Both the position numbers and the translations under genes were made by a program. The notes under the pieces were generated by a model. The model ran no database searches and was not told the DNA's origin. It worked only from the letters and a program-made list of their open reading frames with translations. Positions 1 through 57,638 of a DNA stretch of 64,000 nucleotides are shown piece after piece (positions within the stretch are counted from its first letter, which is position 1; the number at the start of each line of letters is the position of its first letter). Origin of the DNA: a virus. The stretch is taken from positions 1 through 64,000 of the IMG/VR virus record IMGVR_UViG_3300036792_000096. The stretch is one strand, 5' to 3'.

Positions 1-275
1 CGCGAAGTTTGCGCGAGGTTGGGCATGAATGAACCTCGCGCACTGCGCGAGGTGGGTGCGCGAAGTGCGCGAACCTCTACCCAAACCCGACGAAACAACC
101 TCGCGCACTTGAATATACACGGATGTCTATATCCGCAGGTCAGAGGCACCTCGCGCTTCGCGCATTCCCTAAGTAAAAACAAAACCTTGATTTGGAGTTG
201 GGGCGGCTCCCTTAGGGTCGCCCGCCCCCTCACTCTCCAGACTGCGCGAAGTCACTGCGCGAGGTGCGCGAGGTT
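1..275. repeat. Iteron-like array of TGCGCGAGGT motifs
   Basis: Copies of TGCGCGAGGT, the variant TGCGCGAAG, or their complement occur near 11-19, 32-42, 44-53, 57-65, 66-75, 97-107, 148-156, 157-164, 243-251, 256-265 and 265-274, in both orientations. Between them (about 161-200) lies an A/T-rich patch in otherwise GC-rich DNA. No convincing gene lies here. Repeats clustered beside an AT-rich stretch are typical of replication origins (iterons), partition centromeres or multi-site operators; which one cannot be told from sequence. The array continues to the left edge, so its true extent is unknown. Confidence 0.7.
200..228. other. Inverted repeat GGGGCGG/CCGCCCC
   Basis: GGGGCGG at 200-206 pairs with CCGCCCC at 222-228; the loop contains the palindrome CCCTTAGGG. 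It sits next to the AT-rich patch of the repeat array. No U-tract follows on the + strand, so a terminator reading rightward is unlikely; it may be part of an origin or regulatory structure. Confidence 0.4.
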
Positions 276-338
276 GGGAAAGCGAAGGACCACATCTCAC
301 CTTGTCGCAAGGTTTGCCTTTGACGCTGAGAGGGTGCA

Positions 339-536
339 GTGACCTCCCCGCCCCCGCCCCGCTCCCAAGTCCGCATCGCCGGCCACCGAGGCACGGTCAC
401 CTTCCTCGGGATGCAGAGCGCGACCGTCGCGCACCTGTGGTCTGCCACCGGCCACCCCGACGGCAACCGCTTCGTCCCCCTCGCTGATCTGGTCCCCGCT
501 GCCCCGTCTCATAAGCGCGTGGGTGTGGCGCCGTGA
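339..536 (+). CDS. Small hypothetical protein, 65 aa
   Basis: GTG start preceded by GAGAGGG. The stop overlaps the GTG of the methyltransferase (GTGA, 4 bp), so the two are probably translationally coupled. The middle (VRIAGHRGTVTFLG) has a short beta-strand pattern like KOW/SH3-type small barrels. First gene of the rightward operon after the repeat array. Function unknown; the coding call rests mainly on the overlap and RBS. Confidence 0.6.
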   Translation: MTSPPPPRSQVRIAGHRGTVTFLGMQSATVAHLWSATGHPDGNRFVPLADLVPAAPSHKRVGVAP

Positions 537-8361: not shown

Positions 8362-9267
8362 GTGGGTGAGACGACAGGAATACAGTGGTGCGACCACAGC
8401 TTTAACCCTTGGATCGGCTGCGCCCACGTCTCGCCCGGCTGCGTATCGTGCTATGCGGAGCGTGACGCCAAGCGGTACGGGCTGGCGGAGTGGGGAGCAA
8501 AAGCCGAGCGCCATGTCACGAGTGACGCCTACTGGCGTCAGCCGCTCGCTTGGAATCGCAGGGCTGCTCAGGAAGGACGACGCCACCGAGTGTTCTGCGC
8601 ATCCATGGCCGACGTCTTCGAGCCCCTGCCTGCTCTGGCGAAGCCGCGTGAGCGGCTCTGGGACCTCATGGCCGAGACGCCGTGGCTGGACTGGCAACTC
8701 CTGACCAAACGCCCAGAGGAAGTCGCCGGGATGGTGCCGTGGGGCGAGGACTGGCCGGCCAATGTGTGGCTCGGCACGTCGGTTGAGAATCAGGAGTGGG
8801 CCGACAAACGCATCCCGATCCTGCTGAGTCTTCCCGCCAAGGTGCGGTTCCTGTCCTGCGAGCCGCTGGTAGGCGAGGTGGATCTTGAGATGTGCGATTG
8901 GACTCCGCCAAGTTTGGAGGGTTTCTCGGGCACCCACAACCCGCTCACGGGTGAATGGTGGCCTGCGGTCGGTGATCCTGACGAGGAGTACCGGAATCGG
9001 TTGACCGAGCAACCGCAGGTCAATTGGGTCATCGTCGGCGGCGAGAGTGGCCCCCACGCCCGTCGCATGGATCTGGCTTGGGCACAGCGGCTAGTGGACC
9101 AGTGCGATTGCGCTGAAGTCCCGTGCTTCGTGAAACAACTCGGCGCGGCCTACCGCCAGCCGAAGGACTCCCACGGAGCCGACATGGCCTACTGGCCGGA
9201 GTCTCTCCGTGTTCGCCAGATGCCCGAGTCCGTGGGGACCGCACCGGGTCAGGCGGTGCTGCTGTGA
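8362..9267 (+). CDS. DUF5131 (phage Gp37/Gp68, three-Cys-motif) protein, 301 aa
   Basis: Start GTG at 8362 follows GGAGAGGGGG. Has the family signature NPWIGCAHVSPGCVSCYAER with three Cys (C-x6-C-x2-C), then VFCASMADVFE, LLTKRPE, VWLGTSVENQ, FLSCEPLVG, WVIVGGESG and PCFVKQLG, all characteristic of the Gp37/Gp68 family. The three-Cys motif resembles radical-SAM cluster sites. Members are common in phages and often near a partner called TcmP, which was not recognised here. Biochemical role unproven. Confidence 0.9.
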   Translation: MGETTGIQWCDHSFNPWIGCAHVSPGCVSCYAERDAKRYGLAEWGAKAERHVTSDAYWRQPLAWNRRAAQEGRRHRVFCASMADVFEPLPALAKPRERLWDLMAETPWLDWQLLTKRPEEVAGMVPWGEDWPANVWLGTSVENQEWADKRIPILLSLPAKVRFLSCEPLVGEVDLEMCDWTPPSLEGFSGTHNPLTGEWWPAVGDPDEEYRNRLTEQPQVNWVIVGGESGPHARRMDLAWAQRLVDQCDCAEVPCFVKQLGAAYRQPKDSHGADMAYWPESLRVRQMPESVGTAPGQAVLL

Positions 9268-12511: not shown

Positions 12512-13285
12512 TCAGACGCTCTGGTCCACGTCGTAGACAAGCTCGTGCCGATCCGCCGGGCGGACCTGTCGATAGACCTCCACCGGAACGTGATCCTGAT
12601 TCGCCATCTCCGTTGCGACCACGAGCAGCACCGGGACGCCCGAGGGGATCTGTAGCGCTTCGATCTCCTCCGGGGTGGGCATGCGGGCCGATATCTCGTC
12701 CCGACGCCACGTGAGGCGCAGTAGGTGCCTTTCCTCGAGAGCCCGGATCGTCCCCCGCTCCACGGGGACCGGCTCGGCGATCTCCGTCCCCTCCACGAGA
12801 GCCGCCGGGAACCACGAGTCGGCCAAGAACGACGGACGCCCGCCCTCCTCCATGACCCGCCGACGCACGATCACGGGATCCCCGACCTCCAGCCCCAGCC
12901 GCCAGGCGACATCCTCGGGGGCCGTGGTGCGCTCAATCGTCACCGACGTCATTCCCCCTGTCCGCCCCAGAGCATTGAGCTCGGCCTGGTAGACGCCCTG
13001 ATTCGAGGCGTCACGCACCGCACGGGACTGGATGACGCTGGCCCGGTAGGGCATGGGCCCCCGCTCGGCGACGAAGGTCCCCCGGGCGTGGACCGTGTGA
13101 ACAAGGCCCTCGGAGCGCAGTACCGCCAGAGCCATGCGGACCACGATCCGGGTGGCTTCGTACTCGGCCATCAGGTCCGCCTCGGTCCCGAGCAGGCCCC
13201 CGACCGGCACTTCGCCGGATGCGATTCTCTCTCGAAGCGTCCCTGCCAACTGCTGGTACATCGGAACGGCGGAATTGCGGTCCAT
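12512..13285 (-). CDS. GntR-family (HutC/UTRA) transcriptional regulator, 257 aa
   Basis: N-terminal winged HTH: PMYQQLAGTLRERIASGEVPVGGLL ... TEADLMAEYEATRIVVRMALAVLRSEGLV then HARGTFVAERGP wing. C-terminal UTRA ligand-binding domain (about residues 95-245; ERTTAPEDVAWRLGLEVGDPV, RRVMEEGGRPSFLADSWFP, LLVVATEMANQDHVPVEVY). Transcribed away from the secretion/conjugation-like operon that begins at 13383, with two perfect inverted repeats in the shared 97-bp gap. In Streptomyces conjugative elements GntR proteins of this type (for example KorSA of pSAM2) repress transfer genes; the same logic is likely here. Confidence 0.92.
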   Translation of the reverse strand: MDRNSAVPMYQQLAGTLRERIASGEVPVGGLLGTEADLMAEYEATRIVVRMALAVLRSEGLVHTVHARGTFVAERGPMPYRASVIQSRAVRDASNQGVYQAELNALGRTGGMTSVTIERTTAPEDVAWRLGLEVGDPVIVRRRVMEEGGRPSFLADSWFPAALVEGTEIAEPVPVERGTIRALEERHLLRLTWRRDEISARMPTPEEIEALQIPSGVPVLLVVATEMANQDHVPVEVYRQVRPADRHELVYDVDQSV

Positions 13286-13306: not shown

Positions 13307-13350
13307 ACCTTCCCGAAGGTCCTAGGATGGTGCGGACTCATACTAGTCCG
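13307..13350. promoter_or_regulatory. Two inverted-repeat operators between GntR gene and transfer operon
   Basis: ACCTTC-CC-GAAGGT at 13307-13320 and CGGACT-CATACT-AGTCCG at 13333-13350 are both perfect. The spacer of the second repeat contains CATACT, a plausible -10 for the rightward operon, and its complement begins TAGTAT, a plausible -10 leftward. Binding of a dimer here would shut both directions. The RBS GGGGAGGG for the 13383 gene follows. Confidence 0.65.
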
Positions 13351-13382: not shown

Positions 13383-13787
13383 ATGACCGATCAGGAACGG
13401 GCAGAGAGCGTGATCCGGGCCGGCGTGCGTGTTGAGGCAGACGACTTCACATGCATCGGCTGCGGTGAGACCGTCACCATCCGAGTCCCCGGCCGGCCAG
13501 CGGGCGGTCACGGGACGCTCGTGACCGTGGACGATAACGGCAAGGCCGGCAGCCCCGTGGACGTCTGGGTCCACCGCAACCGCAAGTGCGTGGCAGCCGG
13601 GGTCCTCAAGGTGCTCGCCGCTTCCGCCGGGGACGCACAGGACGCCGAGCCCGAAGCGGAAGCCGAGACGCCTCCGGTTGCTCACATCCGTCGCACCGCC
13701 GCAGGAACGGGACGTCGGGGCAGTGACGAGGGGTCTGCCCCGGCAACGCCCGCCGAGCCGCAGCCCGAGACGGAGAAGGCGCAATGA
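13383..13787 (+). CDS. Hypothetical protein at head of transfer operon, 134 aa
   Basis: RBS GGGGAGGG directly before ATG. Residues 17-80 hold FTCIGCGETVTIRVPG and a C at the end of the fold (HRNRKCVAAG), suggesting a Zn-containing beta domain; residues 85-134 are Pro/Ala/Glu-rich and disordered. First gene behind the operators. Unknown function; possibly a cytoplasmic accessory factor. Confidence 0.7.
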   Translation: MTDQERAESVIRAGVRVEADDFTCIGCGETVTIRVPGRPAGGHGTLVTVDDNGKAGSPVDVWVHRNRKCVAAGVLKVLAASAGDAQDAEPEAEAETPPVAHIRRTAAGTGRRGSDEGSAPATPAEPQPETEKAQ

Positions 13788-14266
13788 CGACCCGCCCCCG
13801 CATCCTCGCCGGTTGGGCCTTTCCCACCTTCGACCGCTACGCCGTGGGTGAAGCCCTCTGGGGTGCTTTCCTTGCGACGTGGATAGGACTGCTGGTGTTC
13901 CGCTACATGCCCATTGAGGGCCTCGCCCTGATCTCGTGGTCATGGGCCGTCGTGCTGGTTGCTCTGTCTCGACCCGACAGGGAGCGACGGGTCTACGTGG
14001 GAACGATTCGGATCATGGTGGCGTCGATCCGGTCCCTTTTCGCCGGCATCCTCTTCACCGCCGTCAGCATGACCGCGAACCATCAGGCTATCGGTGCCCA
14101 CGGATGGGGAGTGTTCTGGAACCAAACGTTTCAGTGGGCAGACCTCGCTCTCGCTGTCATGTTCCTGCTCTGGACGATAAGGAAGCTGGCAAGGTCCATG
14201 GGTGGCTCCATCGTGCCCCGCCGAGTTAGGGCAGCGTATTGGCGCGACTCGAAGTGGGCTGAGTAG
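13784..14266 (+). CDS. Polytopic membrane protein of transfer operon, 160 aa
   Basis: ATGA overlap. About four hydrophobic segments: WGAFLATWIGLLVFRYM, GLALISWSWAVVLVAL, SLFAGILFTAVSM and ADLALAVMFLLWTI. Basic C-terminus. No family recognised; position before VirB4/VirB6-like genes suggests a channel component or assembly factor. Confidence 0.75.
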   Translation: MTTRPRILAGWAFPTFDRYAVGEALWGAFLATWIGLLVFRYMPIEGLALISWSWAVVLVALSRPDRERRVYVGTIRIMVASIRSLFAGILFTAVSMTANHQAIGAHGWGVFWNQTFQWADLALAVMFLLWTIRKLARSMGGSIVPRRVRAAYWRDSKWAE

Positions 14267-14272
14267 GCACCG

Positions 14273-14875
14273 ATGCGAAGCTTCGTGAGTTTCCGCCAGC
14301 CCTCAGCAGACCGCTGGGCGGAGATGAACGCCAAGCGCACGGCGTACTACGCCTCGCCGGAGTTCAAGGCGAAAGCCAAGAGCGCGGCGCTGATTTGGCG
14401 CTCGCTGGGCTGGGCGTTGGTAGCGGGCCCTCTCGTGATCCGGTTCTGGTTTCCACACGCCGTCTCAGGGATCGCCGCAACCGCCGTCCTGTCGTCGCTG
14501 GTTCAGTTGCTCGCAGCGTTCGGTGTCGCCTATGCCGCTCTGATCCGGGGGACTGCAATCAGCGCGCACCACAGGCTGCACCGGGTGCCCAACCATCTGT
14601 TCGGCTACTCCGGACGCTTCCTTGGCCGGCTCTACAACGAGCACTGGTACGACCTGATCCCGGGCTCGGAAGGCGTGAACAGCGCCGAGTACCACATCCG
14701 CAAGCACGTCCCCGGCCTCAAGGGCAGCAAGGCGCACGATTACTTCATCCGCACCGTCATCGCAGCGCTTCTCTGTCGGTTCTGGTGGGTGGGCGTGGCT
14801 TTCGCGGGGGCGTGTTGGTGGTTCGGGTGGAGTCCCGTCGTCGCGTGGCTGGGCATGGTCGGACACAGGATCTAA
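14273..14875 (+). CDS. Membrane protein of transfer operon, 200 aa
   Basis: Hydrophobic segments LGWALVAGPLVIRFWF, VSGIAATAVLSSLVQLLAAFGVAYAAL and a C-terminal pair FWWVGVAFAGACWWFGW. Between them a soluble stretch with many His/Arg/Tyr (HHRLHRVPNHLFGYSGRF). Unknown family; presumably in the cytoplasmic membrane with the secretion complex. Confidence 0.75.
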   Translation: MRSFVSFRQPSADRWAEMNAKRTAYYASPEFKAKAKSAALIWRSLGWALVAGPLVIRFWFPHAVSGIAATAVLSSLVQLLAAFGVAYAALIRGTAISAHHRLHRVPNHLFGYSGRFLGRLYNEHWYDLIPGSEGVNSAEYHIRKHVPGLKGSKAHDYFIRTVIAALLCRFWWVGVAFAGACWWFGWSPVVAWLGMVGHRI

Positions 14876-14908
14876 GGCCGGAAGCCTTGACGAAAGAAGG
14901 GAGTTGAC

Positions 14909-15223
14909 ATGATGCACGTAGCGAGTGCGGGACACATCCTGCTTGCTGGCTGCGATGCCGCGACGTGGATCAACGCGAAGGTCACCGAGGGCTGGGGCAC
15001 CCTTGGCAACGTTCTCAAGATCGCCGCGGCGATCTATCTGCTTTACGTGCTGATCTTCCACCGCACCCTCAAGGCGTTCGTCTTGGCGCTTCTCCTGACC
15101 GGCGTTGCCTACTGGAGCGTCATCGGTGGCGGAGTCAATTGGGTCGGGGGTCTGGTGGGTGGCGAGACCAACAGCGCCCAGGTGTCGAACCTGACTGCTC
15201 CGGCGTCCGGTGGCGGGTGTTGA
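14909..15223 (+). CDS. Small two-TM membrane protein, 104 aa (possible VirB2-like subunit)
   Basis: RBS GAAGGGAG precedes the ATG pair. Two hydrophobic helices, VLKIAAAIYLLYVLIFH and AFVLALLLTGVAYWSVIGGG, with a short cytoplasmic-type basic turn (RTLK) and a Ser/Thr/Gly tail. Size and two-helix layout resemble VirB2/TrbC pilins or the small membrane subunits of Gram-positive transfer systems; no cleavage site is obvious. Pilin identity is inference. Confidence 0.65.
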   Translation: MMHVASAGHILLAGCDAATWINAKVTEGWGTLGNVLKIAAAIYLLYVLIFHRTLKAFVLALLLTGVAYWSVIGGGVNWVGGLVGGETNSAQVSNLTAPASGGGC

Positions 15224-15702
15224 GCACCGAGCAGCGGTACATCCGCTGTACTCCCTTCACCGCCGTCAACCGGCTCCAGCCCCATATCGGCAAGGTGTGG
15301 GGGTGGGACCGCTGGCCTCTGCCCATGACGGTGTTCCAACTCTCGGCCTTCGTGGGGACCGCGGTGGGCCTGCTCCTCGGCTGGCATGCGTGGGGACGCT
15401 TCGGCATGCTCAACTTCCCCATCTACGCGGGAGCCGTGGCGGGGTCTAAGTACGCTACCCGCCGGATTCAGGTAGGTGGCCGGGCCATCTGGGCAGCGGC
15501 TCTCGGGCTGGCAGGTTCCTACACCGGGAAGCCTCGCATGGACGGCCGCAAGTTCAAGGCCCGCCAACTGACTCGCTACAAGGAACGGAGGATGCTGCTG
15601 GTGCCCGACCCGCAGTGGCGCCGGTACCCGCTCGCCTTTGTCACGACCCACGGGCACCGCCCCCGAGTCCGGTTCTGCTACTGGGTAAAGGCGAAGCCGT
15701 GA
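15217..15702 (+). CDS. TcpE/PrgI-like conjugal transfer membrane protein, about 161 aa
   Basis: Start GTG 15217 or TTG 15220, both overlapping the upstream stop. Two adjacent hydrophobic segments (MTVFQLSAFVGTAVGLLLGW and LNFPIYAGAVAGSKYA), then a basic C-terminal domain (FKARQLTRYKERR, PRVRFCYWVKAK). This architecture and the location directly before a VirB4-like ATPase match the small TcpE/PrgI-type proteins of Gram-positive T4SS. Confidence 0.65.
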   Translation: MLSTEQRYIRCTPFTAVNRLQPHIGKVWGWDRWPLPMTVFQLSAFVGTAVGLLLGWHAWGRFGMLNFPIYAGAVAGSKYATRRIQVGGRAIWAAALGLAGSYTGKPRMDGRKFKARQLTRYKERRMLLVPDPQWRRYPLAFVTTHGHRPRVRFCYWVKAKP

Positions 15703-18296
15703 GGCCGCTCAGGCAGTACCTCCCCGAATACAAGGCCAAGGGCGCCGTCCCAGCCCGCGCGGCCGTTGGAAACCTCGTGTGGACGCACGGCGGAAGCGTG
15801 CTGGGGATCTGGCGGGTTGAGCCTGTCGCCTACAAGTACCTCTCTCACGCTGGCAAGCTTGCCTATCACGAGTCGGTCCGTTCGACCCTGCTGGCGCTCC
15901 CTCCTGAGTCCACGATCCTGTCCGTCTGCCCTCCCCTGGACCATGTGGGGACGGCCATGGCGGTCCTGAAGGGCCACGAGAACCGGGCATCGTGGCAGCA
16001 GGTAGCAGCCGAGTCCGTGGACCTCCTGCACGAGTGGGACCCGTTCGAGCGGTGGTTCTACGTCGTCGCCCACCTCGGCTCCACGGGCGGGTTCGTGGGG
16101 GAGATCAAAGAGCAGATGACGTCGGTTCTGCGCCGGCCCTTCGGGCGCCCCATGGAGCACGACGTACGGGCCAAGGCCCGCCAGGCGCAGAAGCTGGAGG
16201 CGGACCTCCGCCGGTCGGGTCGCACCTTCATCCCCGTGGGTGCCGGCGAAGCGCGGTGGATCTATGCCCGGGCACTGCGCCGTGGCATCCGGGACGTGCC
16301 CCTACTTGGGGCTGACCGGCGGGAGATCCAGACGCCGGGCTTTGCCAGCGTCGGCGGCGTAGTGACTCTCGAGGGCGGCGACAGGAAGGACTACGGGCGT
16401 GGGCTGCGCCGACCCTATCTGCGGGTGGCCGAGCCTTCGGGAGACGGTCCCGAGGCGGTCGGGTACCAGTGCCATATCGCTCTCGCCGACATGCCCGAGG
16501 GAACCTTCCCGGATGACTACGAGATTCTCTACGCCCTTGACGACTTCGGGTTCCCCGTGGACTGGGCCATCCAGATGCATCGCACGACCAACGCCCTGTC
16601 CCGCCAGCACCTTGCCAAGAAGTCCAAGGCGCTTGTGCAGGAGTTGGGGGGCGAGGGCCGCGCCAAGGAGATCGAGGACACGGGCCAAGTCCCGGCGGAG
16701 CTTCAGGAGGCATGGGACGCCCTACTTGCTCATCGGGAGCGCCTTATCGCCCTGAAGTCCGAGGGCAATGTCCGAGCCACCATCGCTCTCACCGTGTGGG
16801 GCCGGGACCTCCGCACCGCACAAGCTCGAGCAGACGCGGTGGTGGAAGCGCTGGCGCCGAACGAGTGGGGACTGGCTCGGCCCCCAGGCGGTCAGTCGGG
16901 CCTGCTGGAGTTGGGCATGCCCGGCGGCCGTACCGCCGTCGTGGCTTACAACTACGAACAGACCCTTTTGCCGACTGACATCGCCGCTCTCGGCCTCTTC
17001 GCAGGCTCGGACATCGGCGACGACACGGGGTTTCTCGTGGGGGCCCGCATGGACTGCAAGACGAACCGGCCTGTCCTGTGGGAGCCCGCGGGCGGGTTGC
17101 ACATGGGCCAGTCGTCGTCAGCAGTCTTCATCGGAGTCCCCGGCTCGGGTAAGAGCCTGAGTGCCAAGCGGTCGATGCACGAGGGTGTTCTCGCCCGAGG
17201 CGGGCGGGGAATCTCCATTGACCGGACTCCGCAGGGAGAGTGGGTGCGCTTCGCCGACGCCATGAGGGAGGAGGGCTTCTCTACCTCCGTCGTCACAACT
17301 GACGAGGCGGCGCGCAGTTCCTTCGATCCCTTCCGAGTGTTCGCCGATGCGAAGGACCAGAAAAAGTACGCCCTCGGCCTCTACCTGCTGGTAACCCAGA
17401 CTCCCTCGTCCAACCTCTCGGGAATCTGCCTCAGCGACGCGGTAGAGGAGGTATCCCAGCGTGACGCCTCGGAGCGGTCATCCCCGGCCGTGCTGGGTGT
17501 CCTCGAGCAGATGTTTGCGGAGGGCCGGCATGGGGCGGAGGAGGCGTTCTACAAGTTGCGCGCCTTCGTCCGAGGCCCGTATGGGCGCATGGCCTTCGAT
17601 CCCGACTCAACCCCGGCCAACCTCACGGCTGACTTCGTGGTGTTCCACGTCCCGGATCTTGAGCTCCCCGACCGGGAGACCATGCGAGACGGGCAACTCG
17701 CATCGCAACTCCTCCCCGAGCAACTGGGGGCGCTGGGGGTCTTCTACCTCATCGCCGCCGCCGGCCGGGCAATCATCCTTGCCGACCGGGACCGGTTCTC
17801 CGTCCTGTGCGTCGATGAGGCGTGGGTGCTCACGTCGACCGTGCAGGGCGTGGACCTGCTGGAAACGACGGAGCGGGACGGGCGCAAGCGGTACGCCGCC
17901 GTGTGGCTCATCACGCAGCACCCAGACGACGTGTCGGACCCGAAGCTCTCTGCCTTCCTCATCACGCGCTTCGTGTACGCGCAGGGACAGGGAGCGGGCC
18001 CCGGAGCTTTGGCGTTCCTCAACCTCGAGCCAACCCCCGCACTGGTGGAGAAGGTGCAGGACGGGCTGTCCCGGAACGACAGGCTCGACGCCGACCCCGA
18101 GCCGGCTCGGTGCATGATGCTCGACGCCCGTCGCCGGGTGGGCGAGATCGTGTGGAACCCGCCGTCCGAACGCCTCATGCGGGCCTACGAGACCAACCAA
18201 CGGCGGCTGAGTGCCTACGGTCCCGCACCTGTGGACGCCGGAACCAATGGGCACGCTGAGCCCGCCGAACTCGTGGACTACGAGGTAACCCGGTGA
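15699..18296 (+). CDS. VirB4/TraC-like T4SS ATPase, 865 aa
   Basis: GTG start overlaps the upstream stop. N-terminal half (1-400) is the VirB4-type domain with RQAQKLEADLRRSG. Walker A FIGVPGSGKSLSAKR lies near residue 480 and Walker B SVLCVDEAWVL near 704, followed by the sensor-like LITQHPDDVSD. Length is normal for VirB4/TcpF/ConE ATPases that power assembly and substrate transfer at the inner face of the membrane. Next to TcpE/PrgI-like and VirB6-like genes, the order of Gram-positive conjugation systems. Confidence 0.92.
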   Translation: MRPLRQYLPEYKAKGAVPARAAVGNLVWTHGGSVLGIWRVEPVAYKYLSHAGKLAYHESVRSTLLALPPESTILSVCPPLDHVGTAMAVLKGHENRASWQQVAAESVDLLHEWDPFERWFYVVAHLGSTGGFVGEIKEQMTSVLRRPFGRPMEHDVRAKARQAQKLEADLRRSGRTFIPVGAGEARWIYARALRRGIRDVPLLGADRREIQTPGFASVGGVVTLEGGDRKDYGRGLRRPYLRVAEPSGDGPEAVGYQCHIALADMPEGTFPDDYEILYALDDFGFPVDWAIQMHRTTNALSRQHLAKKSKALVQELGGEGRAKEIEDTGQVPAELQEAWDALLAHRERLIALKSEGNVRATIALTVWGRDLRTAQARADAVVEALAPNEWGLARPPGGQSGLLELGMPGGRTAVVAYNYEQTLLPTDIAALGLFAGSDIGDDTGFLVGARMDCKTNRPVLWEPAGGLHMGQSSSAVFIGVPGSGKSLSAKRSMHEGVLARGGRGISIDRTPQGEWVRFADAMREEGFSTSVVTTDEAARSSFDPFRVFADAKDQKKYALGLYLLVTQTPSSNLSGICLSDAVEEVSQRDASERSSPAVLGVLEQMFAEGRHGAEEAFYKLRAFVRGPYGRMAFDPDSTPANLTADFVVFHVPDLELPDRETMRDGQLASQLLPEQLGALGVFYLIAAAGRAIILADRDRFSVLCVDEAWVLTSTVQGVDLLETTERDGRKRYAAVWLITQHPDDVSDPKLSAFLITRFVYAQGQGAGPGALAFLNLEPTPALVEKVQDGLSRNDRLDADPEPARCMMLDARRRVGEIVWNPPSERLMRAYETNQRRLSAYGPAPVDAGTNGHAEPAELVDYEVTR

Positions 18297-20299
18297 GGCG
18301 CCTCGCGGCAGTGCTTATCACCGCGGGAGGCTTGGCCCTCATCCCCGCTGCTGCCAGCGCGCAGACCGTTCCCACTCCCACGGTAACGACCACGCCGACG
18401 CCCGGGCCGACGGGCGTTCCGCAGATCCCGGCAAAGAAGGTGTGCAACGGGGTTCCCCAGCCGGTTCTGGGGTTCATTTACGATCCCAAGTACCTCGTGC
18501 CAGGTGCCAACGGTGGGTTCTCGCTCGAGGATGAGATGCACGCCTGCTCGCTCGAGGGCCAGCAGCAGGTTCACGACCAAGCCAAGGGCTTCATGAATGC
18601 AATGGTTCCCGACAACACCGGCTCGGCCATCCCCCTCAGTGCCTACGACATCGGCTTCGACGGCTCGATAACGCAGGGTCCGGCGCTCGTTATCGGGATC
18701 GCGACGGCTATCCTCTTCGCTGTAGCGGTGTGGATCGTGGCCGGCGGACTGACGCTGGTGACGTGGGCGGTGTCCTTCCCCTTCGTTTCAATCGGTTCCG
18801 CCGTGGCCGACGATGTCTCGAAGGCGATGCTGACGAAGGTGATCGGGCCTATCGGGCTCGGACATCTGGCACTCGGGATCTGCGGTGTGGCGGTCGCCTT
18901 TCATCTGTTGCGTGAGCGAGCGAACCGGGCGGTCATCGAAGTGGCGACGTGCATGGTGGCACTCGTGTTCGCCTCTTTCCTGCTGACGAATCCCGGCGCC
19001 CTTCTCCGCTCGGGCTTCCGGGTTGAGCAGCAACTAATGGCAACGCTGCTCACCATGGGCCAACCCCCGGCTCAGACCAGCGTCACGGTCCAGAGCGGTA
19101 CTGCCTCGACCGATGCCGCTTTGGCTCCTCTCAAGAAATCCGTGCTGTCTGCCGACGTGCAGAACCCCTACGACCTCATCGACTGGGGAGCGGTACTCAC
19201 GGGGCGCTGTGCCGCCATCCGAGACGAGGCGCTTGCACTTGGGCCGTGGGGTGACGCCTCGGCTCCCCGGGACACCATGGCGAAGCTGCCCGAGTGCCAA
19301 GCCGCCGCAACGTGGAACGGGAACTCTTCGTTGTCCAAGCTGGCCGGTGGCGGGTTCTCTATCTTCAACTCCCTCTCCACCTTCGCCCTGCTGGCTGTGA
19401 TGGCTCTCGCCCTGCTGGTGAGCGAGTTGGGGGCCTGCTTCCTCATGGCCCTCTCACCTCTGGCCATCGTCGCCGCCTGTGTCCCCAAGGTCCGCTCTGG
19501 CTTCGCCCGCTGGGCTGAGGGCATACTGAGGGTGATCCTGGTCACGATCGTGGCTGCGTTCTTCCTCTCCCTGTGGTCACTGTTCATGGTGGCGCTGCTG
19601 GACAAACTTCCCCCGGGCACTCCTCTGCTGCTGCGGTTCTTCGTCCAAGCCTGTGTCACCACCATGACCATCATCGCCTTTGTCTCGGCCCTCCGTAGGC
19701 TCCCCCGGGTGGCTCACAACGTGGTCAAGAGCATGTCGAAGGACGAGGGCTACCTCTCCCCGGCCAAGTCACACGGTGGCACGCTCGGCCTCGGCCTCGG
19801 CTCGCTGGGCATGGCCGAGGCGCTGGGCTACCGGGACAAGTTGTCCAGCCTCACGCCCAACCGGAACCGGCGCAAGTTGGTAGGGGCGATCAAGGGCCTC
19901 AAGGACGGACCAAAGGAACTCGACGCTGGAGAGGAATTTGATCCCGCAGGTGTGGGGTTCCCGCCCTGGACTCCGGGCACCGACATGGAGTTGAGCGGCG
20001 GGCCCTACGGAGACAACAAGTGGCGTTCGGATAGGGTTACTGCCGAACGGGTGCCACCGCGTACGGATAACTGGACGACTCCCGAAGTCCTTCGAGAGGC
20101 TACCTTGCGTCTCAGCAACCCCCTCGCACGGCCCGTGATCCGGCTGCCCGAGAGCAACCCCCGAAAGGTCGTGGTGCCCCTCAGTGTGGCTAATGCCGCG
20201 CCTTCCCGTAGAGCGCTCCCGCCCGCCGGTTCCACCTCGGACGCACCTGTCCGGGCATGGGAAACCCGTCGGCGCGACTACGAGATCCCGGAGGAGTAA
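18293..20299 (+). CDS. VirB6/TrbL-like membrane channel protein, 668 aa
   Basis: N-terminal signal peptide-like segment (LAAVLITAGGLALIPAAASAQ), a Thr/Pro-rich extracellular linker, then several TM helices: ALVIGIATAILFAVAVWIVAGG, LALGICGVAVAFHLL, VALVFASFLLT, FALLAVMALALLVSELGACF, ILVTIVAAFFLSLWSLFMVALL and TTMTIIAFVSAL. The C-terminal 160 residues are soluble and Arg-rich. Topology fits VirB6/TcpH/TrbL proteins that line the translocation pore. Coupled to VirB4 by a GTGA overlap. Confidence 0.85.
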   Translation: MRRLAAVLITAGGLALIPAAASAQTVPTPTVTTTPTPGPTGVPQIPAKKVCNGVPQPVLGFIYDPKYLVPGANGGFSLEDEMHACSLEGQQQVHDQAKGFMNAMVPDNTGSAIPLSAYDIGFDGSITQGPALVIGIATAILFAVAVWIVAGGLTLVTWAVSFPFVSIGSAVADDVSKAMLTKVIGPIGLGHLALGICGVAVAFHLLRERANRAVIEVATCMVALVFASFLLTNPGALLRSGFRVEQQLMATLLTMGQPPAQTSVTVQSGTASTDAALAPLKKSVLSADVQNPYDLIDWGAVLTGRCAAIRDEALALGPWGDASAPRDTMAKLPECQAAATWNGNSSLSKLAGGGFSIFNSLSTFALLAVMALALLVSELGACFLMALSPLAIVAACVPKVRSGFARWAEGILRVILVTIVAAFFLSLWSLFMVALLDKLPPGTPLLLRFFVQACVTTMTIIAFVSALRRLPRVAHNVVKSMSKDEGYLSPAKSHGGTLGLGLGSLGMAEALGYRDKLSSLTPNRNRRKLVGAIKGLKDGPKELDAGEEFDPAGVGFPPWTPGTDMELSGGPYGDNKWRSDRVTAERVPPRTDNWTTPEVLREATLRLSNPLARPVIRLPESNPRKVVVPLSVANAAPSRRALPPAGSTSDAPVRAWETRRRDYEIPEE

Positions 20300-20916
20300 T
20301 GCCCTCCGCCCTGAGACGCCGATGGGTCAAGATCCTGCTTGCCTCCGGGCTAGGTTCAACGCTCGTTGTGGTAGCCGTGGTCGGGTTCGGATTCATGGCC
20401 GTGATGACCCTGCTGGGAGCCTCGCGTGTGGGTGGAACGCTGGCGCAAACCACGTCGTCCTTCGGTGCCCCCGCCGTGGTCCCCAAGGGCTCGGGAGCGA
20501 CGGCGGGACAGGAAGAGTTCGCTGGCGCGCTGGGGCTGTGCTGGCCCGCGGATCCGTACGTGCGGCTGGCGTGGACTGTGGCCGAAGGTGGGGGAGTGAA
20601 CCCCGGCCAGCCCCCGAATAACTTTCTGTTCCTGACCGCCGTGACTGGCGGTTTCCAGTCCTTTGACTCCCCTGAGTCCGCAGCGCAGGCCGTGTGTCAG
20701 ACCTTGCAGGCCCCCCAGTACGCGGGAGTCCTGTCCTCGGTCGGCCTCGCCCCCGTCCTGCAACTGATCGCCGTGGCGCAGTCTCCGTGGGATGGAGGCT
20801 ACGTGGCGTGGGGTGATCCGGCCGGGCACTATGGAGGAGACGGACGCAATCTGGTAGGGGCCTACTACCGCCTGCTTGGGAACACGAACTGCCTCTACCC
20901 GACACAACCATGCTGA
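20299..20916 (+). CDS. Membrane-anchored lysozyme-like protein (VirB1/TcpG analogue), 205 aa
   Basis: ATG overlaps the upstream TAA (TAATG). N-terminal TM helix STLVVVAVVGFGFMAVMTLLG, then an extracellular domain with WTVAEGGGVNPGQPPNNFLF, Glu in the position of a lysozyme-like catalytic acid, followed by ESAAQAVCQTL and VAQSPWDGGYVAWGD, resembling the lysozyme-like/glucosaminidase folds. Such enzymes open peptidoglycan for T4SS channels. Catalytic identity is inferred from pattern only. Confidence 0.65.
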   Translation: MPSALRRRWVKILLASGLGSTLVVVAVVGFGFMAVMTLLGASRVGGTLAQTTSSFGAPAVVPKGSGATAGQEEFAGALGLCWPADPYVRLAWTVAEGGGVNPGQPPNNFLFLTAVTGGFQSFDSPESAAQAVCQTLQAPQYAGVLSSVGLAPVLQLIAVAQSPWDGGYVAWGDPAGHYGGDGRNLVGAYYRLLGNTNCLYPTQPC

Positions 20917-20929
20917 GAGGGGAGCCGAG

Positions 20930-21232
20930 ATGAAGCCAGTGGTGTACGTGCCGAGGTCGGTTGTGAGCAAGGGAGTCAAGTTCGCTCTCTGGCTGGGCGC
21001 TTGGGGTCTCTGCTCCGCCAACCACATCCCGTCAGGCTGGTTCTTGGGCGGAACCGCCGTCGTGGTTTTCCTCGTGCGCTGGTCCCGCCGCCGGCCACCG
21101 GTTCTCCCGACGGAATGGGCCCGCAGAGACATGAGCCCGGAGGAGGTCCGAGCGCTACTCCAAACGGTGGCCGCTACGGAGCCGGACGAGCCCGAGCCTC
21201 CTCAGCAGATCCAAGCCCGACGGGTTGACTAG
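20930..21232 (+). CDS. Small membrane protein of transfer operon, 100 aa
   Basis: RBS GAGGGGAG before ATG. One or two hydrophobic stretches (FALWLGAWGLCSAN, WFLGGTAVVVFLVRW), then an acidic/Pro-rich tail (ATEPDEPEPPQQIQ). Directly followed by the MT-A70 gene. Unknown role in the transfer complex. Confidence 0.7.
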   Translation: MKPVVYVPRSVVSKGVKFALWLGAWGLCSANHIPSGWFLGGTAVVVFLVRWSRRRPPVLPTEWARRDMSPEEVRALLQTVAATEPDEPEPPQQIQARRVD

Positions 21233-21850
21233 GTGACCCAGCGCTACCGCACCATCGTCGCCGACCCGCCGTGGCCTATCAAAGACACGGGGGCTTGTTC
21301 TAGCCCCCGTGTCGGAGAGCGTAAGGGCCGGTGGGATTCAGGCAAAGGGACCGTAGGTAAGAGCAGCCGCGTGCCCTATTCAGTGATGAGCCTGACCGAG
21401 ATTGCTGAGTTGCCCGTGGCTGACCTCGCCGAGCCGGACGCTCATCTCTACCTGTGGACCTTTGGACCGTTTATTCCGAAGGCGTATGAGTTGGTGAAGG
21501 GGTGGGGGTTTAAACCGTCTGCTCTGCTGACTTGGTGCAAACCCCCGATGGGACTCGGGTTCGGAGGCGCCTATGTCCCCACAACGGAGCATGTTCTATT
21601 CGCACGCCGGGGACGACTGGCTGCCCTGCGCCGCTGGCACTCCACGTGGTTCGAGTGGCCGCGGCCGTACCTAACTCAAGGCCCCGCGCACTCAGCCAAA
21701 CCCGAAGCCTTCCTAGACCTAGTCGAAACGGTCTCCCCCGGACCGTACCTGGAACTTTTCGCGAGGAGGAACCGCCTCGGCTGGTCAACTTGGGGCAACG
21801 AGTGTCTTGAGCACGTGGAGATGCCGACAACTGGATGTGGCGACAAGTAG
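21233..21850 (+). CDS. MT-A70 family adenine-N6 methyltransferase, 205 aa
   Basis: GTG start right after the previous stop. DPPW at residues 11-14 is the catalytic motif of MT-A70; LYLWTFGPFIPKAYELVKGWGFK, TTEHVLFARRG, HSAKPEAFLDLVETVSPGPYLELFARR and GWSTWGNE complete the family pattern. A perfect 12-bp inverted repeat sits just after DPPW. Bacterial/phage MT-A70 proteins methylate DNA adenine. Its location inside the transfer operon suggests methylating DNA for arrival in a new host. Confidence 0.92.
   Translation: MTQRYRTIVADPPWPIKDTGACSSPRVGERKGRWDSGKGTVGKSSRVPYSVMSLTEIAELPVADLAEPDAHLYLWTFGPFIPKAYELVKGWGFKPSALLTWCKPPMGLGFGGAYVPTTEHVLFARRGRLAALRRWHSTWFEWPRPYLTQGPAHSAKPEAFLDLVETVSPGPYLELFARRNRLGWSTWGNECLEHVEMPTTGCGDK
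21284..21313. repeat. Perfect inverted repeat, 12-bp arms, in MT-A70 gene
   Basis: GACACGGGGGCT at 21284-21295 and its exact complement at 21302-21313, 6-base loop, starting about 12 bases after the DPPW codons. Same type as the hairpins in the C5 and ParB-fused methyltransferase genes. Confidence 0.85.
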
Positions 21851-21889
21851 ATTTCGGCAGGGCTCTAGAGAGAACGGTGACATAGAACG

Positions 21890-24286
21890 ATGGAACAGTC
21901 AGAGCAGGTAGATAGGGAAATCCCTGATGCGGCCGTTGCGGACTGCTCCCCCCCTGTCCCCTCCTCCGTCGGGTCCTTCGGTTCGCAAGCACCCCCCTAC
22001 ACGGGGGGTGAGAGTACACCGCTCCAGACCGCTGAGCCCAAGAGGAAGACCGTCGAGCTCGCCCCCTCAAGATCCTTCAACCCGAACCCCGAAGAGGTAC
22101 TCCGTTGGTCAATCGCTCTCGCAAGATCCACAAGAAGGTTTCACCCGAAGGACTTCATCCGGATCCACCTCCGTGCAGACAATGGATACCTCTCCTACCT
22201 GCTCTCCGCTCCCTCAGAAGTTCTCCCGCGGCTCCTCACCTTCCTACCCGCGGGGCTGACCGTCCGCGAGGCCGCTGTTCCTCCATCGCCAGCCGCTCTT
22301 GCAGTCTCGCGAGCAGTGGTTTCGCTACCGCGAAACCCTCGAGTGGTGCCCGCGGATCCCGACGTTCTGGGGGACTTCGCGCGTGCGCTCGCGGAGGCAC
22401 GCGAAGGTGAACTAGCGGAGGTCATCCTCGACCTCGTCGCGGCAGACAAGCGCCCTCGCGAGCGCCAGTTTTCATCGCGCGAGTGGGATCCCGCGAAGCT
22501 CCTCACCGCGGCGCGAACCGCTGCCGCGCGGGACTTCCTCGCGAGGCCCCAGCCGACACGTTCGAACCCACGCGAGGAAGCCGAGAATCACCCTCCTACG
22601 GAGGAGATTCTCTTCCGCGTCGCGGTCCACGCACACGCCTTTTCCCCCGACGCCCAGCGCGCTCGCGACCTTGCTCTTGGGCTCGCGCAGCCCTTCCACG
22701 CGTGGGGACCCGGAGGCTCAGTCAAGGTGTCTACACGCTCTCCCGCCGCGGGGTGGCTCCACGAGGGACACCGCCCTCGTGGAGCACGGTCTCAGGTGGT
22801 TGCTCAGACGGCGCTGGCCTGTCTGCTGCTGCCCCCAACGGAGTCCTGCACGGCCATGAACGTAAGACGCTCTGGGGCCGCTGCGCCGCCTCCGCGGGGG
22901 CTACTGCCGCTGGGTCCCGGTACGCGCCCCTTGGGTCACGTCGCGGGCTACTCCGGGCCCGTCGGGATCCGCTGGGATGAGTTCTTCTTCGGCGGACTCT
23001 CCGGGCAGACGCGGTGGGGCAAGAGCTACTTTGAGATCGGGACCTTCCTCTCTTGGGTGCTCGAGGCTCCCTACGGGCTCGGACTGGGCGGGTGCTACGT
23101 TGACCCCACACGCGAGGCGCTGGGAACGCTCGAGCCGTTCATGACCTCCATCGCCCCCCGTTGCCTTGTCGTGGACCTGGGGCGGAATTGGGATGACCTG
23201 TACCTGCCCTGCTGGAACCTGCTGGATGCTCGCGGCACAAAGGACCAGGAGGCCAACGAGCGGGTCGGCGCCATGACGTCGGGGTTCCTCGCTGCAACGA
23301 AATGGAAGCCGGACTTCGCTTCCCGGGCAACGGCCATCATCACCAACACGGCCAACAGTCTGATCGCCTTCGACCGTGCGCTGCCGGCCGACGCCCCCAC
23401 GCCCACAATCTTTCAGATCCACACACTCATCGAAAACGAGGAGTGGCGCAAGAAGATCCTCCCCTGTCTCCCCCAGCACCTTCGTCAGTGGTGGGAGGAT
23501 TCCTTCCCCCGACTTCCGAAGGACGCCGTGCTGACCGTGACCAACCTGATCTCACGGCTCCGCAACGATGTCCCCACCGCAGCCTTCCTCGGGGGACGCA
23601 ACACGCTGAACCTGCGCGAGGCCATGGACCGCCGCCAGGTGGTGCTGTTCTCCAACGCCCGGAAGGGGGACGGACGTGACGCCCTGCCGACATCGCTGTT
23701 CGTGCGTGGTCTGCTCATGGCCGGCCACTCCCGCCAGGACACGCCCGAGGTCCGGCGCAGGGAGGAGTGCCCCCGCTTCCACATCGTCTACGACGAGGCC
23801 CCCACCTACAACGGCCCCGACCTCGCCTCCGGCATGCAGGAGCTTGGGAAGTACGGGATCGTGTCGGACGTGCTCTCGCAGGGACCTTCCAAGCTCAAGG
23901 TCGGCGGGACGTGGGACGCTCTTGCCACCAACAGCTCCACGCTCACCACGACCTCCGTGGGCCACGACGACGCGGTCATGATCGCCAAGGAGTGGCAGGG
24001 CGCCTCAGCGTCCGACATCATGGACACGGAGCGTTACACCTTCCTAACCTCCGTCGTCCACGAGGGACGGCACAGCCCCGCCTTTCACTTCCGAGCCATC
24101 GACCCCCACGACCTCTACCCGTACGAGGCCGGCGTGCTCGAACGCTCAATCGCCAAGGATCGTCGGTATCGGCTCGCAAGCGAGACCGTCGCCGATCTGG
24201 AGACGCTGGACGAACGGCTGGTGAAAGCGTGGATGCGGGGGCAGAACTCGGGCCCCCGGCCGATAGCGGTGGACGTGGAGTCATGA
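21890..24286 (+). CDS. VirD4/HerA-like conjugative coupling ATPase, 798 aa
   Basis: ATG start after a 39-base gap. Pro/Ser-rich N-terminus (about 65 residues), an Arg/Ala-rich region (100-350), then Walker A SGQTRWGKSYFE near residue 370 and Walker B HIVYDEAPTYNG near 632; the DLGRNWDDLYLPCWNLLD region fits VirD4/TraG/HerA ATPases. No N-terminal TM helix was seen, unlike classic VirD4, so it may be a soluble coupling protein or rely on a partner. nt 22260-22720 has an unusual density of CGCGAG/CTCGCG codon pairs, unlike neighbours. Confidence 0.85.
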   Translation: MEQSEQVDREIPDAAVADCSPPVPSSVGSFGSQAPPYTGGESTPLQTAEPKRKTVELAPSRSFNPNPEEVLRWSIALARSTRRFHPKDFIRIHLRADNGYLSYLLSAPSEVLPRLLTFLPAGLTVREAAVPPSPAALAVSRAVVSLPRNPRVVPADPDVLGDFARALAEAREGELAEVILDLVAADKRPRERQFSSREWDPAKLLTAARTAAARDFLARPQPTRSNPREEAENHPPTEEILFRVAVHAHAFSPDAQRARDLALGLAQPFHAWGPGGSVKVSTRSPAAGWLHEGHRPRGARSQVVAQTALACLLLPPTESCTAMNVRRSGAAAPPPRGLLPLGPGTRPLGHVAGYSGPVGIRWDEFFFGGLSGQTRWGKSYFEIGTFLSWVLEAPYGLGLGGCYVDPTREALGTLEPFMTSIAPRCLVVDLGRNWDDLYLPCWNLLDARGTKDQEANERVGAMTSGFLAATKWKPDFASRATAIITNTANSLIAFDRALPADAPTPTIFQIHTLIENEEWRKKILPCLPQHLRQWWEDSFPRLPKDAVLTVTNLISRLRNDVPTAAFLGGRNTLNLREAMDRRQVVLFSNARKGDGRDALPTSLFVRGLLMAGHSRQDTPEVRRREECPRFHIVYDEAPTYNGPDLASGMQELGKYGIVSDVLSQGPSKLKVGGTWDALATNSSTLTTTSVGHDDAVMIAKEWQGASASDIMDTERYTFLTSVVHEGRHSPAFHFRAIDPHDLYPYEAGVLERSIAKDRRYRLASETVADLETLDERLVKAWMRGQNSGPRPIAVDVES

Positions 24287-25002
24287 CGCCCTATTACTCC
24301 GACGAGTGGACCACTCTGTATCACGGAGACTGCCTAGATGTCATCGCCGATGTGCCCATGCTCTTGGACGCCGTAATTACGGACCCCCCTTTCTCGTCAG
24401 GGACGCGCCATGAGGCCGGGAAGCCAAGCAGCGGGGCCATGCTCCGAGCGGGGCGGTTCAGTGAACGCCCGCTGGATCTCGATCAGATGACTACCACCGG
24501 GTTTGTATGGCTTCTTAGGGCTGTGGCGCGAGGGGTGTACTCGGTACTGGTGGAGGGTGGGTCGTTCCTCTCTTTTATTGACTGGCGTCAGTGGCCCAAT
24601 CTTGTGGGAGCACTAGAGACGGCTAACCTCCGCGTGCAGGGAATGGTGGTTTGGGACAAAGGTCACTTCGGACTAGGGAACGGGTTCCGATCCCAACACG
24701 AGTTGATCTGCCACGCCTCGAAGGGTGTGCCAGCTATCTACAACAAGGGTATTGGCAACGTCATTCGCCATTCCCGAGAAGAGCCCGAGTTCCACCCGAG
24801 CCCCAAGCCGGTAGGGCTCATGGAACGCCTCATCACCACCGTGAGCCCGCGGGGAGGAACGATTCTGGATCCATTCGTCGGGGGCGGCACGACTCTCGTC
24901 GCCTGCAAGATGGCGGGCCGACTTGGGATCGGAGTGGAGAGCGATGAGGGGTACTGCGAGGTAGCCGCGTCCCGTCTTGCACAGGAAGTGCTGGCACTCT
25001 GA
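24283..25002 (+). CDS. DNA adenine/cytosine-N4 methyltransferase, 239 aa
   Basis: ATGA overlap with the coupling ATPase. Motif IV TDPPF at residues 33-37 and motif I ILDPFVGGGTT near residue 195, i.e. IV before I as in beta-group amino-methyltransferases. HPSPKPVGLMERLI precedes motif I as usual. The DPPF Phe instead of Tyr/Trp is a known variant. Likely a restriction-protecting DNA methyltransferase in the transfer operon. Confidence 0.9.
   Translation: MTPYYSDEWTTLYHGDCLDVIADVPMLLDAVITDPPFSSGTRHEAGKPSSGAMLRAGRFSERPLDLDQMTTTGFVWLLRAVARGVYSVLVEGGSFLSFIDWRQWPNLVGALETANLRVQGMVVWDKGHFGLGNGFRSQHELICHASKGVPAIYNKGIGNVIRHSREEPEFHPSPKPVGLMERLITTVSPRGGTILDPFVGGGTTLVACKMAGRLGIGVESDEGYCEVAASRLAQEVLAL
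24371..24382. repeat. 12-bp perfect palindrome upstream of DPPF codons
   Basis: CCGTAATTACGG. Short but perfect, located immediately before the catalytic motif codons of this methyltransferase. Could be chance or an autoregulatory or recognition site. Confidence 0.5.
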
Positions 25003-25905
25003 ATGCAGCCCCTGCCCCTCCCTCTCGCCGAGCACGCGCTTCTGGAGGTCATCGGCTGGCACCGCTACCTCACCCGCCGCCAGTGCTGGCTCTACGAACG
25101 ACCTCAGGACGCCAACAGCCGCCCCACCTACGCCCTGCTCGGGCGCCTCGCCAAGCGGGGGCTGGTGGGCTCAGGCCAGGTCGATGGCCGGGGCGTGGCG
25201 GTCTACTTCCTCACCCCCGCCGGCATCAAGGCACTCCCGCCAGCCCTCCGCAGGGACTACCAGCCCTCAGCCGAGCAAGCCGGCTTCCGCTACAGGCACA
25301 CGTGGCAGGTCAACGAGGCGGGCCTCGCCTTCGTCCAGGCCGCCCGGGAGCGGGGTGACGAGTGCGGCCCACTTGCCCTCGAGCACGAACGCCGTCTCCG
25401 GGACACGGGAGACAGCGCCTCTCTCCTCATCGCCGACGGCATCCTCCAGTACGCCCTACAGGACTCGAAGACCTACGACCCGCGCTGGGCCATCCTCGAG
25501 GTGGACCGCCGCACGGCCCCCGGCCGCATCTGTGACCGCCTCCGGGCCTACGCCACCATCAAGCGCAAGAAGGTCTTGTGGTCCAAGGTGCTCCCCGACG
25601 GCTGGCCCCCGGTCCTGTTCGTCATCTCCGCCGACCCGAGCTCAGGCCCCCGAGTGGGAGAGAAGCACTGGGCAGGCGACCCCAGGGCATCCTCGGCTCG
25701 TACCCGCCGGCTGACGGCCTACGTCGCAGACCGGATGCGCGACGAATCCCTGCTGCGGGGGCTGGAGGTGTTCTTCGCCCCCCTGCCAGCACTGTTGGCC
25801 GACGGCCCCTTCGCCCCCATCTGGCACCGCCCGGGCCACGCCGAGCCGCTGGACTGGCTGGGGCGCCCGGTCATGTCCGCCGTGAGCGAAGGCGGGGCAG
25901 CGTGA
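25003..25905 (+). CDS. Replication-relaxation family protein, 300 aa
   Basis: ATG immediately after the methyltransferase stop. N-terminal winged helix: LLEVIGWHRYLTRRQCWLY ... TYALLGRLAKRGLV ... VYFLTPAGIKALP. C-terminal half (HERRLRDTGDSASLLIADGI ... AILEVDRRTAP) resembles a PD-(D/E)xK-like core (E-V-D). This is the actinobacterial family annotated as involved in plasmid replication-relaxation, often near conjugation genes. Last gene of the transfer operon. Role in DNA processing is family-based inference. Confidence 0.85.
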   Translation: MQPLPLPLAEHALLEVIGWHRYLTRRQCWLYERPQDANSRPTYALLGRLAKRGLVGSGQVDGRGVAVYFLTPAGIKALPPALRRDYQPSAEQAGFRYRHTWQVNEAGLAFVQAARERGDECGPLALEHERRLRDTGDSASLLIADGILQYALQDSKTYDPRWAILEVDRRTAPGRICDRLRAYATIKRKKVLWSKVLPDGWPPVLFVISADPSSGPRVGEKHWAGDPRASSARTRRLTAYVADRMRDESLLRGLEVFFAPLPALLADGPFAPIWHRPGHAEPLDWLGRPVMSAVSEGGAA

Positions 25906-30729: not shown

Positions 30730-31068
30730 CTATCCCTGTGGTGCTTCGGCTGGTGCTGTGGTCTCGGTGATGCTGACTGCGATATCGCTGATCCATGTGA
30801 CTGGTAGGGACCGCTCAATGGTGACCTTGGCGCCGTACTCCTCCAACAGTTTCGCTCGCTCCTCGGCGGACTTGCGGGAGAGGTACGTCTTCACCCGCGG
30901 CCATGAGAAGCTGAAATCGGTATCAGGATCGCCGTTCCAGTTCTTAGCGCCCGGGTGCTCCCATCCCTCTGGCTGCCAGTCCCAATTCCATTCGCCCTCA
31001 GCCGTGTGGTGACTGGTCGGATGGTAGGTGACGTGGAGCCGGTAGGCGTACAGTCTGCGCTTGCTCAT
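30730..31068 (-). CDS. Hypothetical protein, 112 aa
   Basis: Start at 31068 overlaps the SSB stop by 4 bp. YAYRLHVTYHPTSHHTAEGEWNWDWQPEGWEHPGAKNW is aromatic-rich; RKSAEERAKLLEEYGAKVTIERSLPV looks like a small alpha/beta domain. Directly after SSB; function unknown. Confidence 0.7.
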   Translation of the reverse strand: MSKRRLYAYRLHVTYHPTSHHTAEGEWNWDWQPEGWEHPGAKNWNGDPDTDFSFSWPRVKTYLSRKSAEERAKLLEEYGAKVTIERSLPVTWISDIAVSITETTAPAEAPQG

Positions 31069-31469
31069 GAGGCAACCTCCGCGGTGGTCTCCCCAGCGTC
31101 CCACGACCCGGGCCCTGACCGTCCAAGCTTCGTGACTGCGGCTGTGGCGTACGAGAGGTCCGGACCGATGGCGAAGGCGTTGATCTCCACCTTGGAGCGC
31201 TTGTCGCCCTCGGCGGTCTCCCACGAGCGGGATTCCAGCCGGCCGTTCACGATGATCCGGTGGCCTTTGTCCAGCGACTCTGCAACGTTTTCGGCGAGCT
31301 GCCGCCAGCACACCACATCAAGGAAATCCGTTGCTTCCACCTTCTCGCCGGCAGCGTTCGTCCACGAGCGGTTGACCGCTATCCCCAGCTTGGCGACTGC
31401 GACCCCGCCCGGGGTATAGCGAAGCTCCACGGAGCGGACGAGATTGCCCACGATTGTGATGTCGTTCAT
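31065..31469 (-). CDS. ssb: Single-stranded DNA-binding protein, 134 aa
   Basis: OB-fold with classic features: ITIVGNLVRSVELRYTPGGVAVAKLGIAVNRSW, ATDFLDVVCWRQLAENVAESLDKGHRIIVNGRLESRSWE. Start at 31469 by overlap. Shorter than cellular SSB and ends in AEVAS without the acidic DDDIPF-like tip that recruits host repair enzymes. Covers ssDNA in phage replication or transfer. Fourth-to-last block of the leftward operon driven from 33611. Confidence 0.93.
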   Translation of the reverse strand: MNDITIVGNLVRSVELRYTPGGVAVAKLGIAVNRSWTNAAGEKVEATDFLDVVCWRQLAENVAESLDKGHRIIVNGRLESRSWETAEGDKRSKVEINAFAIGPDLSYATAAVTKLGRSGPGSWDAGETTAEVAS

Positions 31470-57444: not shown

Positions 57445-57638
57445 GCGGCGACATTATGGACGACAGCATTCGCAGGGTTCGCTTCGAGGCACTGAAGTTG
57501 GCTGTGGGACGCGCAGACGAGCACCACAACGCTGACCAAGTCGTCCGTGCCGCGAAGGTGTTCGCATCGTTCATCGGTAACGGATCATCGCCGCTTGATG
57601 ACGAAGACTCGGCAGAGACCGAGGAACCCAAGCCGTGA
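57441..57638 (+). CDS. Hypothetical protein, 65 aa
   Basis: GTG overlap start. Helical RRVRFEALKLAVGRADEHHNADQVVRAAKVFASFIG, acidic C-terminus (DDEDSAETEE). Small proteins of this pattern lie beside virion genes in many actinophages. Unknown. Confidence 0.7.
   Translation: MSGDIMDDSIRRVRFEALKLAVGRADEHHNADQVVRAAKVFASFIGNGSSPLDDEDSAETEEPKP

Follow-up and report, generated by a model that had tools for sequence, protein, structure and literature searches.

Phages are classed apart from conjugative plasmids according to their mode of transfer. A relaxase or oriT has been described mainly in P1-like plasmids with lost phage functions, and the phage-plasmids themselves lack a relaxase or oriT in all but two cases (PMC10879196). 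The Streptococcus prophage phi1207.3 was formerly called a conjugative prophage; it was later shown to form virions and to lysogenise as a phage, and the term 'type IV' does not occur in the paper text (PMC9927172). A partial precedent is the inducible prophage of Rhodococcus erythropolis NI86/21, in which a type IV secretion system (T4SS) DNA-transfer protein and a replication-relaxation protein are annotated. Unlike the locus described here, this prophage is integrated near a tRNA gene; the portion of the source drawn on here does not mention a VirB4/VirB6 channel, and the likeness is one of description (PMC12915292). Among plasmids, those of Streptomyces/Kitasatospora (such as pKP058, pSTRVI01 and pRVR1) carry genes for PrgI-like, VirB4, VirB6, VirD4-like and PF13814 proteins, and six such plasmids have these five genes in the same order as the DNA analysed here. 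In the openly licensed literature, no description was found of a virus lineage that inherits a channel together with a coupling protein and a relaxase.

The DNA analysed here, the window, covers positions 1–64,000 of the 90,657-base (90.7-kb) virus record IMGVR_UViG_3300036792_000096. A 148-bp direct repeat occupies both ends of the record (window 1–148 and record 90510–90657, the second copy lying beyond the window), and its copies differ at one base, which falls at the centre of a palindrome; thus, the genome is probably complete, and either circular or terminally redundant, its class in the collection being linear. The phage structural genes lie on the plus strand and were recognised by phrog matches, as expected from the preliminary description, which had placed terminase, portal and capsid genes further along the same record. 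They encode the terminase large subunit (41463–42995; phrog_2, E=1.2e-25), the portal protein (44180–46759; phrog_776, E=7.4e-53), a minor head/portal-related protein in the capsid protease region (48729–51341; phrog_859, E=2.3e-28) and the major capsid protein (52699–54570; phrog_777, E=3.1e-69). The 48729–51341 gene matches head genes of Microbacterium phage Rasputia and Arthrobacter phage Mimi, and the capsid proteins of these two phages are also related to that of the window (about 21% and 42%, respectively). Head-tail adaptor, tape-measure and tail genes follow past the window end, and the record is a tailed phage (Caudoviricetes) with a full structural gene set. Plasmid-type genes are also present, namely those for a RepA-like AAA_25 protein (record 89246–90541), a ParB-like/DNA methyltransferase fusion (39357–41033, plus strand) and a single-strand DNA-binding protein (31065–31469, minus strand; PF00436, E=2e-31); neither ParA nor an integrase was recognised among the record proteins scanned. 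The RepA-like gene adjoins noncoding sequence (window 1–340 and record 90510–90657) with many GCGCGA/CCTCGCGCA palindromes, a possible replication origin. Elsewhere in the record, a C5 cytosine methyltransferase (window 533–3202) is split by a Hint/intein-like domain (PF13403, PF14890), and PspA/IM30-like and von Willebrand A-domain genes adjoin each other (record 84688–86191, minus strand).

The T4SS operon (13.4–25.9 kb) lies on the plus strand and opens with three genes without a recognised family (13383–14875; 134, 160 and 200 aa), with membrane helices predicted in the second and third products. A 104-aa two-helix membrane protein follows (14909–15223), a putative VirB2 counterpart by its position. 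The next gene (15217–15702), already listed as PrgI-like in the preliminary description, encodes a PrgI/VirB3-like membrane protein (plasmid-only profile, E=3.2e-8; blastp, E=2e-6). The VirB4 and VirB6/TrbL genes named there were confirmed by Pfam matches. The VirB4 ATPase (15699–18296; PF12846, E=9.8e-42; NCBIfam TcpF, E=2e-31) contains the Walker A motif GVPGSGKS and the Walker B motif VLCVDE, and the VirB6/TrbL channel protein (18293–20299; PF04610, E=4.8e-8; CD3337/EF1877 family, E=2.7e-14; plasmid-only profile, E=2e-26) has seven predicted membrane helices. In contrast, the label 'lysozyme-like' given to the following gene (20299–20916) is unsupported: its product, a membrane-anchored protein encoded where the gene for the cell-wall hydrolase is expected, has no HMM match, and its structure model is too poor to use (pLDDT 46). 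It is a candidate hydrolase by position, and a related virus, G713, has an M23 peptidase in the equivalent position. Beyond a small protein with no family assigned (20930–21232) stands the VirD4-like coupling ATPase (21890–24286; Walker A GQTRWGKS). This protein has no Pfam match itself, but distant members of its family match PF02534/PF10412, and the VirD4-like reading of the preliminary description is borne out by homology to the plasmid coupling protein (leave-one-out profile, E=2.7e-87; blastp against the plasmid-module protein, E=8e-57). Its N-terminal domain is fused, whereas in most compared plasmids this domain is a separate gene. The Walker A and B motifs are intact in both the VirB4 and the VirD4-like proteins. 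The operon ends with a PF13814 (Replic_Relax) protein (25003–25905; PF13814, E=5.7e-11), the replication-relaxation gene of the preliminary description. Two methyltransferase genes are interleaved in the operon, as had been noticed at the outset: an MT-A70 adenine methyltransferase (21233–21850; PF05063, E=4e-16), which adjoins the coupling-protein gene, and an N6/N4 DNA methyltransferase (24283–25002; PF01555, E=4e-27). In four bacterial genomes (L141, L143, L148 and L149), an MT-A70 methyltransferase gene also adjoins the VirD4-like gene, with the PF13814 gene next in three, and the methyltransferase, coupling and relaxase genes may therefore represent a recurrent cluster.

To place the operon among known systems, we compared it with the plasmid modules. 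The five proteins in common are about 20–38% identical, with best blastp E values against the six plasmids ranging from 2e-6 to 3e-96. With plasmid-only profiles, the PrgI-like, VirB4, VirB6, VirD4-like and PF13814 proteins are each the clear best match in all six frames of the record; profiles A1–A3 include the window's own proteins, and only their leave-one-out versions are taken as evidence. The plasmids differ from the window in having a VirB8/TcpC-type 'conjugal transfer protein' and NlpC/transglycosylase hydrolases, and in the stretches compared they have no annotated divergent GntR regulator and no capsid genes. VirB8/TcpC gave no match in the six frames of the record or in the ORFs of G713, although a very divergent form is possible in either virus, and no counterpart of the NlpC/transglycosylase hydrolases was detected in the window virus. 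Judged from its gene content, the operon would work like a Gram-positive conjugative T4SS; as VirB8/TcpC was not found, we do not count it among the complete systems of that type.

The PF13814 protein bears on the search for a relaxase, which the preliminary description had proposed to look for outside the window; the gene that closes the operon already supplies a candidate. For streptococcal mobilisable elements, PF13814 is given as the family of the MOBC relaxases (PMC5357655), and the MOBC prototype, pAD1 TraX, has an N-terminal winged helix and is kin to PD-(D/E)XK enzymes (PMC12857230). The window protein scores 43.3 bits and the G713 protein 55.4 bits against a curated cut-off of 25.3. 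As modelled (pLDDT 83), the window protein has a winged helix followed by a PD-(D/E)XK-like core of helix-strand-strand-strand-helix-strand order, similar to the arrangement in pAD1 TraX and CloDF13 MobC; D145 opens the second core strand, and E166 and D168 close the third. A PDB fold search with this model gave strong matches for the winged helix only, with FokI as the top but weak hit (E=0.004). Across the eleven diverse PF13814 members compared, D145, E166 and D168 do not vary, and position 179 is lysine in nine of them, arginine in the window protein and glutamine in one. The G713 protein has D, E, H and K at positions 145, 166, 168 and 179, respectively. Compared with the MOBC relaxases, the viral proteins vary at positions 168 and 179; we regard the window protein as a candidate relaxase. 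Bacillus phages, including Bacillus phage G, also have folds similar to the PF13814 protein, so the family alone is no proof of conjugation.

The T4SS operon is preceded by a divergent GntR/UTRA regulator gene (12512–13285, minus strand; PF07702, E=1e-24; PF00392, E=1.5e-13), which has a counterpart in equal position in G713 (33% identity). In the gap between regulator and operon lies a CGGACT-N6-AGTCCG inverted repeat (13333–13350), a candidate operator that has no second exact copy within the record; no motif common to it and other promoters was found.

A scan of the virus collection with the capsid alignment yielded two close relatives, G713 and G712; like the window virus, both are metagenome contigs. 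Single-sequence and profile-pattern scans of the same collection for VirB4 and VirD4 gave no match, yet G713 is in the collection (the exact-peptide step missed it). G713 (IMGVR_UViG_3300043632_000006) has 98,873 bp (98.9 kb) with an exact 127-base end repeat, a capsid protein 63% identical to that of the window virus and about 52 homologous genes in common with it. Its operon reads GntR/UTRA (minus strand), small two-helix protein, PrgI-like, VirB4, VirB6, M23 peptidase, VirD4-like and PF13814, the two-helix protein that opens it being the counterpart of the 104-aa protein. In both circles, the operon is located between the tail/early genes and the terminase. G712 (38,372 bp; capsid 69%) is a fragment that has another such two-helix protein near its broken end, and the contig stops just past this and the PrgI-like gene, where VirB4 is due. 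The genes and their order are co-inherited in two viruses, and probably in three. Outside this group, VirB4 was not found in 98 other related phage records, fourteen of which exceed 80 kb and many of which are short fragments.

These relatives decide whether the arrangement could have arisen in assembly, by the joining of a phage contig to one from an unrelated plasmid. The record is metagenomic and such hybrids are rarely described; however, G713 has this operon too, next to the same regulator, G712 reaches into the operon, and both complete-looking records have end repeats. The DNA of the window virus and G713 is mostly 65–79% identical in longer matching pieces, so they are two distinct viruses, and a join at one place in both is not credible. 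The shared gene style of the two modules, pointed out in the preliminary description, is also seen in their G+C content and codon usage (RSCU r=0.98). An assembly join can therefore be practically dismissed, and the original view of a T4SS module inside a tailed-phage genome stands: almost certainly, the module is genuine and an inherited part of these viruses.

The age of this association can be judged from the proteins. The T4SS proteins of the window virus and G713 are 28–39% identical, compared with a median of 62% for the virion proteins, and the former may change faster. VirB4 is 39% identical between the two viruses with intact Walker A motifs in both, so it has been kept over a long time. 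In the VirB4 tree, the two viral proteins form one clade (100/100), which stands beside VirB4s from six actinobacterial genomes and apart from the clade of Streptomyces plasmids (100/100). The tree argues against separate captures, although the branches of both viruses are long; one capture of the module followed by inheritance is the simplest reading. The module might instead reflect a recent fusion of a phage with a conjugative plasmid, or an element integrated in a phage, with no lasting partnership. The actinobacterial phage-plasmids Streptomyces pS1D4-14.2 (98.8 kb) and Rhodococcus DMF-1 plas-2 have related portal, minor head, capsid and head-tail genes but, unlike the window, no T4SS, coupling protein or PF13814 homologue in the same comparison. 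A Streptomyces phage-plasmid of about 100 kb thus shares the head/tail module and lacks the T4SS, so the T4SS must have been gained at some point; against a recent gain, the viral VirB4s form a single old clade (39% identity), and the location beside the same regulator is common to both viruses. We regard a recent fusion as very improbable. In the DMF-1 plas-2 record, about 13 kb including the terminase/capsid region occurs twice, as happens when the assembly of a circular molecule is extended too far.

Bacterial genomes with this system were also compared. Among 79 bacterial loci whose VirB4 belongs to the same family, the VirD4-like gene is present in 47 and PF13814 in 38 within the fetched flank. 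None of 35 bacterial genomes with this system has a portal or terminase gene within 150 kb of the T4SS; a portal gene is absent from all of their T4SS contigs, and the nearest terminase match is weak, about 160 kb off and chromosomal. The six genomes with the nearest VirB4s contain no phage portal family, and their T4SS contigs contain no terminase match. In the annotated phage collection, no actinophage has a VirB4 or VirD4-like match; VirB4 matches are confined to three Streptococcus/Enterococcus records, in one of which the match bears the annotation of a conjugative transposon protein, and VirD4-like matches are absent from the whole collection. In one bacterial genome (G359), coupling-protein and PF13814 genes have a WhiB-domain gene, an M78 peptidase gene and a large serine integrase gene as neighbours (L140, 1–7306), with phage head genes on a separate contig; perhaps the two belong to one prophage. 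A DUF5131 protein accompanies the T4SS in the window (8590–9267), in G713 (at 67121) and on G143 contig C138 (at 21050), the bacterial contig whose full T4SS module comes closest.

Taken together, we infer a cycle of repression, nicking and transfer, with a plasmid state in an actinobacterial host. The phage would probably exist as a circular plasmid when not lytic, maintained by the RepA-like and ParB-like proteins, and its lineage would have acquired the actinobacterial conjugation module in a single capture and passed it on from then. The GntR/UTRA repressor would hold the operon off via the palindrome at 13333–13350. On its release, the PF13814 protein would nick an oriT in the phage genome, where none was located, and the VirD4-like ATPase would feed the strand into a channel formed by the VirB4, VirB6 and PrgI-like proteins; the phage genome would then enter an adjacent cell by contact, and the capsid and tail genes would provide a second, extracellular route. 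Contact transfer of the viral genome is the likely role of the module, and the whole account, from a single capture in an actinobacterial tailed phage to inheritance and use in contact transfer, we likewise consider probable.

Two other functional readings of the inherited operon have to be weighed. The T4SS could deliver proteins or the DNA of another element, for example to compete with or exclude rivals. T4SSs that inject proteins into bacteria are established, VirB8/TcpC is missing here, and the relaxase residues differ between the window virus and G713. However, both viruses retain genes for a coupling protein and a relaxase-family protein at the operon end, and no effector-like gene was recognised in the operon, which leaves such delivery unlikely. 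The operon could also be decaying cargo without function: in the window virus, the hydrolase slot holds a short gene without a recognised domain and VirB8 is missing. Decay is nevertheless quite improbable, as the core reading frames are intact and Walker A is conserved though about 60% of the VirB4 residues differ.

If contact transfer of the phage genome is correct, a tailed-virus lineage would have two built-in routes, virions outside the cell and, between touching cells, self-encoded conjugation with its own relaxase, coupling protein and channel, and its members would be the first viruses known to inherit a machine for conjugation; we give this reading as a whole about even chances. The parts are known singly, and their inherited combination in a virus lineage is new within the openly licensed literature. 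A virus lineage keeping both machines would break the rule that a relaxase and oriT are mostly absent from phage-plasmids (PMC10879196). It would explain how a phage reaches cells without its receptor, and whether conjugation can serve as a viral transmission route becomes testable. Finally, an Endonuclease VII/HNH gene adjoining the capsid gene (54588–55583, minus strand), probably a mobile endonuclease, is matched in G712 and not in G713. The glycosyltransferase/methyltransferase cassette between the capsid and tail genes (55814–62553) shows 53–67% identity across all three related viruses.
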